NCBI GenBank assembly: GCA_903920215.1 | Contig: CAIXLG010000099.1 | Location: forward strand, 1 to 40,427 | Direction: 5' to 3' | Origin: an uncultured Chlorobiaceae bacterium | Lineage (GTDB): Bacteria; Bacteroidota; Chlorobiia; Chlorobiales; Chlorobiaceae | DNA length: 40,427 bases | Part shown: positions 20,481 through 23,699 of the stretch, piece after piece | Position numbering within the stretch: the first letter of the stretch is position 1 | Layout of the letters: the number at the start of each line of letters is the position of its first letter | Translations under genes and position numbers: made by a program | Notes under the pieces: model-generated | Seen by the model: the letters and a program-made list of their open reading frames with translations, nothing else | Databases searched by the model: none | What the model was told of the DNA's origin: nothing

Positions 20481-22714
20481 TTAAAATGCTTCACCAATTC
20501 CAAAATTGAAGGTAAAGTCTTTGAGCTTCCATGCTGAAATTCGCCATGCATCACTCTCAGTCGGGTCACGCAGCTTATAGGCAAAATCAAAGCGGAAAGG
20601 TCCGATAGGAGATCCTATTCGCAGGCCAATGCCTGCATCCCATGCGTAGTTATTGATCATTGATCCGAGAGAAAATGCATATGGTCCAGTCCTGTCCCAT
20701 ATATTGCCCATATCAGAAAAGACGTTAATACCTGAAGATTGGCGGAACAGTTTGAAAAATTTCAGTCTGTATTCCAGATTCAGCTCAAGTTTTATGTCTG
20801 CGCCGAAATTTGCAGCAGCATTGCTGGCGCTGTTGCCGGGTCCAAGGGTATTGAAAAGCCACCCCCGCATGCTGTTTGCACCACCGGCATAAAAACGTCG
20901 CTCCTGAGGGGTCGTTTCAGCTTTTCCCCATGGCGTCATCCATCCGATATCGCCTCTTGCGGCAATTTGGCTTTGTGGAGAAATAGTTTGAATAAAGCTT
21001 AGCCCGGGTTCAACCTTTATATACTGCGTATAAGTTGTCCCGAATATCTGCGGGTCACTACTGGTGAACCCGCTATATGTTTTAGTGTCAATATATTTGT
21101 CAATCAGCCAGGGAATTGTTCCGCAATCTTCCAGCAGAAGGTCGAAATTCCAGATTGTTTTTTCCGCCGGAATGCTCTTGCGGTTGGTGAAGTTGTAGCG
21201 AAGCCGGAAGGTTTGATCGATATGGGTTTGCAGAAGGCTGTCAATTCCAGCATTGACCGCGGCGCTGTTGGCAGGGTTAATGCCGATATTCTGGGCAAGA
21301 TTCTTTGTGAATAGTTGTTTGAATCCCCTGAGAGAGTCGCTTTTAACCAGCTCAATTTCAAAAAAATCGAAATTCACTCTTGATTTCGGACTCAATTTGG
21401 CACTGTAGGTTCCCCGCAGGAGTGCGTTCTGGGTTGAAAGCAGCACAGGCTGTATGGTGCTTGCGTATTCTGCTGTAACAGCATAGGCGTTGCCCGGCTT
21501 TTTAAGAACCGGCATGATGAGGCTGCTTTTCAGATTGAATTCATAGGGAATCACCTTCGCGTATTGCGCTGGGTCAAGGTTCTCCAGTACACTGTTTCGG
21601 TTGCCGACCTGCGTGCCGAATTCAGTTGAGGTATTGAATTGTTCTGCTCCCCCAAACAGGTTTTTGTTTTCATAGGCCAGTGATCCAGCGAAAAAGAGGG
21701 ATCCGAAACGATTGTCTACCAGCAATTTTGGTTCTATCTGGTGCTTTGGTGCCGTTTCGAGATGCACGGTAGTGTAAAGTTGACCGGAACGTACAGAGTC
21801 AGGACTAATGTAGATGGATGAAAAAATATTGGTGATACCAAAATTCTGCAGGGTGCGCTGTTCGAGACTTTGTCGGGTAGCCATGCCTGGGCGGAATGCA
21901 ATGGCAGAGGTAATAAGATCAGGGGATACCTTCTGTTGCCCGATAACTTGGCCGCTGATTTTATCCTTTGTAAAGGTTTTTTCTGCTGGCTTTTTGTCGC
22001 TCCTTATGGGGTTGTGAACGACTGCATGGACAGGTCCGTATGTAAGCTTTTCCGGCAGACTCAGTCTAAAGAGTACCCCTGCACGATTTCCAACAGTATC
22101 AACCTTGATGCGGATACTATCCTCATGAAAAAAAGCAAAACCCTCTTCTTTGAAAAAAGAAAGGGAGCGGTTTCTTTCATCGATCAGTCGTTCAACGGAA
22201 AAAATATCGTTGACTTTCAGGCGCTTTTGAGCAAGATAATGGGCTTTCAGTTCCCTTGAAATCTTCTCAAGCCCTTCGTATTTCAGTGAATCAATTTTCG
22301 AAGGATCATTTTCTCGGATCATTATGTTCAGATCCACCATCTTCCCGTTGTTTTTTTTTACAATCGTGGAGTTCACGTCAGTAAAAAAGTATCCCTTATA
22401 GGTATAGAGTTTTTTTATGAGACTGAGATCTTTATCAAACTCCTCAGCATTGAATGGCTTAAACGCTCCACCGAAGAGGCCGAGCCCCAGAAAGGATGAG
22501 TGCTCAGATGTGGCAATAACCTGCCTGAGCTCCTCGCTGGTGGTCGCCTTGTTGCCAGTGAAGCTTATTTTTCGGACAAATGGCACTGTCGACGATTGGT
22601 CAGCGCCGGTGCTTACTGACTGGCTATATGCCGGCAGGGCACAGAGCAAAAGAAGAGCAGCAAGACTCCATGCTTTTGCTCTGGAAAGGAAGGAAGTTGC
22701 TAAAAAAAAAACAC
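20481..22714 (-). CDS. Omp85-family outer membrane protein (BamA/TamA-like), start out of frame
   Basis: About 740 residues: a signal peptide, two or three POTRA-like repeats (from VRKISFTGNKATTSEELRQV to about residue 300), and a C-terminal 16-strand-type beta barrel. The barrel contains the family motif RRFYAGGANSMRGW and ends in a terminal Phe (NFGIGEAF), the outer-membrane insertion signal. The frame open to the stop at 20481 has only TTG 22649 as a start, which cuts the signal peptide to MLCALPAYSQ. The bases upstream encode a full signal sequence (FLATSFLSRAKAWSLAALLL), and a GTG at 22714 would start it if the 10-T run had 11 T. The coordinates given use that GTG. TamA-like rather than the essential BamA is possible. 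Confidence 0.85.
22702..22711. repeat. Ten-base homopolymer at the 5' end of the Omp85 gene
   Basis: A run of ten A on the plus strand (ten T in the coding sense) directly follows the candidate GTG start of the Omp85 gene. Eight or eleven bases would join the GTG to the signal peptide; ten give a TAG three codons later. Such tracts are typical slippage sites. Confidence 0.85.
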
Positions 22715-22733
22715 GTAACTGAGTTCCGTTATC

Positions 22734-22961
22734 CTATGTTAATGGCTCTTCATCACTGTAACCGAAGTCTTCATCTGTAGGATAGTCAGGCCATATTTCG
22801 TCAAGACTTTCATACATATCATCACTTTCCGGAAGATCTATCAGGTTTTCGATAACCTGTTGTGGCGCTCCGGTTCTGTTTGCGTAATTAATCAGTTCAT
22901 CTTTTGTGACGGGCCACGGTGCGTCTGCTATATAACGGGCTAGATCTAAATTCCAATACAT
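22734..22961 (-). CDS. DUF2795 family small protein
   Basis: 75 residues. The central part, PVTKDELINYANRTGAPQQV followed by ENLIDLPESDDMYESLDEIW, is the DUF2795 pattern of a short helical domain; the acidic tail is unstructured. Function is unknown. It lies 19 bp before the candidate start of the Omp85 gene and after the M23 gene on the same strand, within one likely transcript. ATG 22961 (MYWNLDLARYIADAPWP) is the only sensible start. Confidence 0.8.
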   Translation of the reverse strand: MYWNLDLARYIADAPWPVTKDELINYANRTGAPQQVIENLIDLPESDDMYESLDEIWPDYPTDEDFGYSDEEPLT

Positions 22962-22985: not shown

Positions 22986-23699
22986 TTAAGAGTTATTGCC
23001 TTCTTCTTCAGGTGAAGTCTTTTTGATTGTGATGAGCTTGCCAGGTTTTCCATCAAAGAAATAAGCGGTTGGATTTACTATGACATTGTTTTTGTGGACT
23101 TCGTAATGCAAGTGCGGACCGGTTGAAACCCCGGTGTTTCCTGAAAGTGCAATGATGTCACCACGGTTAATTTTCTGACCTTGGCGTACCAGGGATTTTG
23201 AGAGGTGGGCATAGACTGTTTTATAGCCGTAACCGTGATTTATGGTGACTTTTTGTCCAAATCCCTTGTCATAGCCAGAAAAAGCTACAATTCCATCGCC
23301 TGTAGATTGCACCCTTGTACCTTCAGGTACAGCAAAGTCGATTCCTGCATGAAATAGAGGCAGATGATAGATCGGGTGCATCCGGACGCCAAAACTGCTG
23401 GTAATTGAGCCCTCGACTGGCTTGATATTGGGTATACTTGAAAAAAACGAGGTCGGATTCGGGTTTTCAATCAGCTCATCTTTTTCAATCGTATTCTCTT
23501 TCTGGAGATCAATCTGCCGGATCAGTTGCTCAATCATTTGTTCCGTCGTTGCCAGGAGTCCTTCGGTAGTTTTGGGTGTTGCGTTTTTCGGAGCACTATC
23601 AACGATCTTTTGTTCTTGAGCAAGTATCAGGGTTGGTGTCAATAAAAGAGAGGTGAATAGAGCCAGGGAGAAAAAAAAATTGTTTAAAGAGAGATGCAT
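22986..23699 (-). CDS. M23-family murein endopeptidase (LytM-like)
   Basis: 237 residues from ATG 23699. The N-terminus MHLSLNNFFFSLALFTSLLL with a cleavage site near LAQEQ is a good signal peptide. A short coiled segment (TTEQMIEQLIRQIDLQKEN) precedes the peptidase domain. The zinc ligands are seen in FHAGIDF (HxxxD) and GPHLHYEVH (HxH), so the enzyme is probably active in the periplasm on peptidoglycan cross-links. The frame stays open upstream to 23846, but that extension has no function I can see and would bury the signal peptide. It follows polA and precedes DUF2795 on the same strand. Confidence 0.92.
   Translation of the reverse strand: MHLSLNNFFFSLALFTSLLLTPTLILAQEQKIVDSAPKNATPKTTEGLLATTEQMIEQLIRQIDLQKENTIEKDELIENPNPTSFFSSIPNIKPVEGSITSSFGVRMHPIYHLPLFHAGIDFAVPEGTRVQSTGDGIVAFSGYDKGFGQKVTINHGYGYKTVYAHLSKSLVRQGQKINRGDIIALSGNTGVSTGPHLHYEVHKNNVIVNPTAYFFDGKPGKLITIKKTSPEEEGNNS

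Follow-up and report, generated by a model that had tools for sequence, protein, structure and literature searches.

A T run at the start codon of an Omp85 gene in Chlorobiaceae as a probable site of programmed transcriptional slippage

In most of the green sulfur bacteria that we examined, an Omp85 gene carries a run of about ten T at its start codon and the remainder of the gene lies in another frame than this codon. The protein is therefore probably made only through a stutter of the copying enzyme at the run. We regard the T10 run as a selected site of transcriptional slippage that would control how much of a TamA/TamL-like protein is made. We give this reading, which rests on the comparison of genome sequences, a probability of roughly two in three; the arrangement looks like a selected means of setting the protein level. 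The case was followed from a 40,427-nt stretch of DNA of an uncultured Chlorobiaceae bacterium, referred to below as the window, through a sample of 86 Chlorobiaceae genomes with one genome per species.

Start region of the Omp85 gene

The features of the start region are listed in Table 1. The upstream DUF2795 gene ends with the stop codon TAG 22736-22734 and 19 nt separate this TAG from the GTG. On the minus strand GTG TTT TTT TTT TAG forms a frame of four codons (V-F-F-F-stop). The Omp85 frame opens with DNGTQLRVFFLATSFLSRAKAWSLAALLLLCALPAYSQ, which is a signal peptide, and its pattern of K/R followed by hydrophobic residues is retained in relatives. In the window sequence there is no ATG, GTG or TTG in this frame from position 22733 down to the TTG at 22649. 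The GTG would be joined to the Omp85 frame if the run had 11 T or 8 T.

Table 1. Coordinates of the elements around the start of the Omp85 gene in the window
Feature	Position	Strand	Basis or remark
DUF2795 protein gene, small (75 aa)	22734..22961	-	PF11387, E=3.3e-17; upstream neighbour
GTG, proposed initiation codon	22712..22714	-	sequence; ATG in many relatives
T10 slippery run	22702..22711	-	sequence; next base A
Zero-frame stop TAG	22700..22702	-	abuts the run and reuses its last T
Signal peptide body, Omp85 frame, ATSFLSRAKAWSLAALLLLCALPAYS	22623..22701	-	translation
Omp85 open frame, POTRA domains and barrel	20481..22733	-	750 codons from stop to stop; PF07244, PF01103
TTG, first canonical in-frame start, judged false	22647..22649	-	without n-region; absent in several relatives

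A preliminary description of this DNA had already pointed to the GTG at 22714 followed by exactly ten T, to a reading frame without a good start and to a signal sequence without a start codon in that frame. All of these elements are present at their places, the signal sequence being recovered by translation, and the statement that 8 or 11 T would restore the frame holds on the sequence. The annotated start had been called wrong as well, which is borne out by close relatives: TTG 22649 is missing in L098, L100, L103 and others, and as a start it would leave only MLCALPAYSQ without an n-region.

Other ways into the frame were considered and rejected. In eleven species including that of the window, no in-frame start, canonical or near-cognate, occurs between the DUF2795 stop and 21 nt past the run. 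Readthrough of the DUF2795 stop codon would lead into the Omp85 frame in the window, where the TAG is in frame with it, but across the tract-bearing species phases 0, 1 and 2 occur 21, 14 and 12 times and the relation is thus not conserved. No terminator or attenuator hairpin was seen by eye ahead of the run in the window. Further homopolymers in the window are in frame, namely A9 at 22351-22359 inside the Omp85 gene and T9 (coding strand) at 23671-23679 in the signal peptide of an upstream M23-peptidase-like gene (SLNNFFFSLALF).

Conservation of the run and of the frame break

The Omp85 ortholog was found in 85 of the 86 species, and the DUF2795 gene lies upstream in 107/107 orthologous loci. 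The T run is present in 47 of the 85 species (T10 in 39, T9 in 4 and T11 in 4) and is retained down to ∼54% protein identity; it was not seen in species of the other families of the order. All 47 tract-bearing species have an ATG, GTG or TTG at the run or up to 16 nt before it with no stop between, and the distance from the DUF2795 stop to the codon beside the run is 11-21 nt. In 46 of these species the Omp85 gene is read in a different frame from this start. One extra base (or two fewer) is needed to restore the frame in 34 species and one fewer (or two more) in 12. The sole in-frame case is L096 with T11; L097 also has T11 yet is out of frame, apparently because a substitution lengthened its run by one T. 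An immediate zero-frame stop follows the run in 36/47 species.

On a tree built from the protein minus its N-terminus and midpoint-rooted for drawing only, 5 changes between presence and absence account for the distribution of the run. The run appears to be ancestral in the Chlorobiaceae. Where the tract changes in length along the branches, it seldom enters the in-frame state, though the events are too few for significance. In several of the species that keep T10, phenylalanine is written as TTT only 7-30% of the time in this gene. In the signal-peptide segment behind the run, differences fall on codon positions 1, 2 and 3 in the numbers 243/157/184, with no excess at the third position.

Several explanations had been offered for the break in the preliminary description, among them a sequencing error and a fixed null. 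Homopolymers are error-prone and the window comes from an assembly of 228 contigs, but dozens of independent assemblies, among them genomes in a single contig and those of cultured isolates, show the same out-of-frame T10. A degraded gene does not agree with an Omp85 frame that is intact at 55-96% identity and that is not interrupted by a stop in any ortholog of the family. We therefore hold an assembly or sequencing error or a decayed gene to be scarcely credible.

The description had also proposed an on/off switch, i.e. phase variation by slippage at replication, and had suggested counting the tract length in relatives. A homopolymer beside a start codon would suit such a switch, as would the in-frame T11 of L096. 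With one genome per species the count showed that the out-of-frame run is widespread, but a mix of in-frame and out-of-frame lengths among relatives was not encountered (1/47 in frame). Phase variation fits poorly because many genomes would be expected to be 'on' if the tract were phase-variable, whereas 46 of the 47 tract-bearing genomes are 'off' in the DNA, T10 is held in 39 species across the family and the reading frame is intact everywhere. Moreover this is a conserved gene of the housekeeping type, and TamL is essential in two Bacteroidota species (PMC12045153). We consider the switch very improbable. Slippage at the tract is a likely route to the protein but is not supported as a replicative switch.

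Loss of the run alongside in-frame starts

An in-frame TTG or GTG ahead of the charged n-region is present in 37 of the 38 species without the run, typically as TTG-GCA-AAA-GC in one large clade and as GTG in another. In L099 a deletion has removed the run and brought the old GTG into frame. Against this pattern, L166 is a tractless species that is also without a good start. Among the tract-bearing species only 13/47 have any in-frame start before the charge of the n-region. Fisher's exact test on 37/38 versus 13/47 gives 8.6e-12, a value that is uncorrected for relatedness and overstates the independence of the species; the supported independent sister pairs for this co-loss number 4, too few to reach 0.05, and phylogenetic tests have little power here because most species share one ancestral state.

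Another possibility is that initiation does not involve the run at all. Ribosomes could translate a mini-ORF (MFFF-stop) and reinitiate at a codon just behind the run, or could initiate there directly. In the second genus the codon would be an ATG at +4 or a CTG or TTG at +3: five Chlorobaculum-type species have the ATG at +4, in three of them beside a zero-frame stop TGA or TAA, and CTG or TTG stands at +3 in most species of the -1 clade, a geometry that suits reinitiation. However, the codon is not conserved: sister species have ATA, ACA or AAT in its place, L149 has TTA, and eleven species of the window's genus, the window included, are without any start there. Such initiation would also leave the retention of exactly ten T unexplained, and we regard it as improbable. 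In some Chlorobaculum-type species initiation may nevertheless take place also, or instead, at the ATG that lies 4 nt behind the run.

Background frequency of long runs

Runs of at least ten A or T are rare. The 3.04-Mb genome of the window has about 20 of them (23 matches, with one T13 counted four times). With overlaps merged, there are 3 runs of ten in the 2.15-Mb genome G060, 0 in G056, whose Omp85 copy carries T9, and 3, 5 and 10 in three others. The three runs of G060 lie in the Omp85 gene, in dnaX and in a KsgA-like gene. As a control we used a glycosyltransferase gene of the window genome (L189:1498-1510, G000:C81), which in this genome alone starts with an in-frame ATG-T10. A 99%-identical sister has T7 there, and the other relatives have no more than T8 at the codons concerned. 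A place next to a start codon is thus not enough to preserve a T run, yet the run at the Omp85 gene is preserved. The control run is recent; it may lower expression or be subject to phase variation. As such runs are rare in the genome and the Omp85 run is kept in 47/85 species, we judge that T10 at the Omp85 start is beyond chance.

Two neighbouring porin-like genes of the window genome (L187 and L188, ∼1501-1510, G000:C74) have near-identical signal peptides and each carries T10 in its leader, a few tens of bases ahead of the start codon; a length-variable control of expression is possible there.

Of the other genes with long runs, dnaX is split at A10 in the window genome (L177:2-966, G000:C23, at a contig end). 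Positions of the gamma/tau model up to 396 are in one frame and 397-620 in another, and the frame shift is +1 base, as at the Omp85 gene. The gene is also broken at A10 in G042 and G064, and it is continuous through A10 in G060. The GeneTack survey proposes poly-A dnaX genes of Chlorobi as slippage genes (PMC3711429). The KsgA/RsmA-like gene has A10 at the motif KKKLGQNF near its N-terminus in L201, L207, L213 and L217 (G060, G041, G042 and G064), in frame in G060. This is possibly another slippage-tuned gene, or merely a conserved Lys-Lys-Lys.

Identity of the Omp85 protein

Searches with Pfam found POTRA and Omp85 domains (PF07244 and PF01103). The best NCBIfam model is lipo_TamL with 290.6 bits, under its cut-off of 400; ATportTamA reaches 66.4 bits (cut-off 625) and the BamA model TIGR03303 reaches 112 bits (cut-off 297). 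An AlphaFold2 model built from 35 orthologs (mean pLDDT 85.8) has three POTRA-like units followed by a barrel, compared to the five POTRAs expected of BamA. The PDB matches of the model are BamA and TamA, with TamA crystal structures among the top matches and Pseudomonas TamA aligned at TM 0.59/0.75. No lipobox cysteine was found in the signal peptide, as LLLLC is no lipobox and its Cys is replaced in relatives.

The same genome encodes a separate BamA-type protein (L172, 423 bits against TIGR03303), and a TamB gene is present on another contig. The preliminary description had favoured a TamA-like role over BamA; the three modelled POTRAs and the separate BamA-type gene argue for the same. Because of the three POTRAs, the scores below the model cut-offs, the lack of a lipobox and the BamA and TamB encoded elsewhere, we call the predicted protein a TamA/TamL-like Omp85 of Chlorobiaceae and a formal member of neither family. 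It resembles TamA and TamL in its barrel, its three POTRAs and the presence of TamB in the genome, and it differs from them in having no conserved lipobox cysteine, in scoring under both cut-offs and in a tamB gene that does not adjoin it. The level of TamL in Flavobacterium appears to be tightly regulated (PMC12045153).

The BamA-type gene has an in-frame TAA within POTRA1 (L172:247-249, G000:C60; between DRIAIPGP and LSSAMQ). The portion after this TAA is 100% identical to a contig of the sister genome G005, which also has an intact copy; the TAA is likely due to a shared mis-binned contig or else a real nonsense allele.

Transcriptional slippage as the best explanation

As its reading frame is kept intact everywhere, the Omp85 gene must be expressed, yet its start is out of frame in the DNA, and slippage is the simplest bridge between the two. 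The slippage most likely takes place at transcription, in every generation, and not at replication, because T10 recurs in independent assemblies, nearly all genomes are 'off' in the DNA and the frame is intact. RNA polymerase would slip on T10 and produce mRNAs with 9, 10, 11 or 12 U, on which translation would initiate at the GTG (ATG in many relatives). The templated U10 mRNA would yield fMet-Phe-Phe-Phe-stop only. The U11 mRNA would yield the full pre-protein, which begins with fMFFFLATSFLSRAKAWSLAALLLLCALPAYS/Q, and in the clade of opposite phase the U9 or U12 mRNA would do so. Most mRNAs would then give a four-residue peptide and a fraction would give pre-protein, and the run would thereby fix the share of transcripts from which this TamA/TamL-like factor of outer-membrane assembly is made. 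The effect is likely one of dose, because there is no second functional product, unlike in dnaX or tssM. From the sequences we infer the slippage at transcription, its efficiency and a lowered dose as its purpose.

Slippage genes are recognised by an A/T run of about nine or more at the frame junction and by conservation of run and frame break against background loss. Here the junction has T10 in the window and T9-T11 in the other tract-bearing species, and the break is kept in 46/47 species although the control run was lost at 99% identity. Slippage of RNA polymerase is able to give both +1 and -1 products and needs a run of about the length of the RNA:DNA hybrid. In A/T runs the insertion of a single nucleotide dominates and rises with run length (PMC5574713), with which the majority of species in need of +1 (34 versus 12) agrees. 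The dnaX gene split at A10 in the window genome serves as an internal precedent. On the other side, 12 species need -1 (or +2), and this is a rarer outcome in E. coli (PMC5574713). The 13 tract-bearing species with some in-frame start before the charge, and the ATG behind the run in the five Chlorobaculum-type species, likewise count against this reading.

The main rival is programmed ribosomal frameshifting, in which the mRNA is unchanged: the ribosome would start at the GTG or ATG and slip by -1 at U-UUU-UUU, or by +1 at UUU-UAG in the other clade. The run does contain T_TTT_TTT, a -1 slippery heptamer of the form X_XXY_YYZ, the zero-frame stop is immediate in most tract-bearing species, and in the window genome a stable hairpin lies 18 nt behind the run (-20.7 kcal/mol, z -2.7). 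But the folding signal behind the site is equally strong in tractless species (mean z -1.33 versus -1.1 to -1.2) and does not appear to be tied to the run. The heptamer needs seven T, yet ten are kept. Furthermore the clades need opposite directions, the 34 species corresponding to a ribosomal shift of -1 and the 12 to the reverse, which is not readily one ribosomal signal. We consider this rival unlikely. An extension of transcriptional slippage is that the run acts as a regulated dial: slippage on a U run would follow the UTP level and the speed of the polymerase and would couple the synthesis of the assembly factor to the growth state across the family, with dnaX being read via the same kind of slippage. 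We offer this as speculation that is rather doubtful.

Significance and comparison with known systems

Programmed transcriptional slippage is an already known kind of mechanism (PMC1088944, PMC5009743, PMC4256274). In the literature searched we did not find slippage described for an Omp85 gene of Chlorobi or at the position of a start codon. The GeneTack survey states that frame breaks no more than 50 nt from a start codon escape it (PMC3711429), and it would miss this gene because the break lies within that distance. What we rate as new is a putative start-codon slippage gate that is kept across a family. The preliminary description does not mention that the run is conserved through the family, that its phase relations are of two opposite kinds, or that an in-frame start has been gained where the run was lost.

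If the reading is true, an outer-membrane assembly protein owes its synthesis entirely to copying 'errors' at the start codon in most species of a bacterial family, and annotated N-termini are wrong across the family. Out-of-frame homopolymers beside start codons could then be functional and need not be 'off' alleles. It would also provide a testable case of slippage that serves purely for protein dose, with the in-frame L096 and L099 and the tractless relatives as natural controls.

Among the closest known systems is dnaX of Thermus and Chlorobi with slippage at ∼A9-A10. There too a homopolymer of about ten bases lies in a conserved gene and heterogeneity in mRNA length restores or breaks the frame. 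However, dnaX has an internal site and two useful products, whereas the Omp85 gene has a T run at codon 2 and its unslipped product would be a four-residue peptide. Buchnera and Blochmannia are symbionts whose reduced, AT-rich genomes abound in such runs. Their slippage-rescued genes (PMC5009743) share with the Omp85 gene a frame that is broken at a homopolymer in a gene that is kept, but the Omp85 case occurs in free-living bacteria whose genomes are in part GC-rich and have 0-20 of these runs. In prfB (RF2), which uses a +1 ribosomal frameshift, the frame break is also near the 5' end, a zero-frame stop follows directly and the arrangement is lost in some lineages (PMC12421855, for part of these features); it differs in being ribosomal, with one fixed direction, an autoregulatory motif and no need for a homopolymer. 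In tssM of Citrobacter rodentium a run of A11 rescues an interrupted gene of an envelope machine, and transcriptional frameshifting was demonstrated by RT-PCR mass spectrometry (PMC4256274). The tssM site is internal, gives two functional length variants and was shown in a few species, whereas the Omp85 site lies at the start codon and is kept family-wide.
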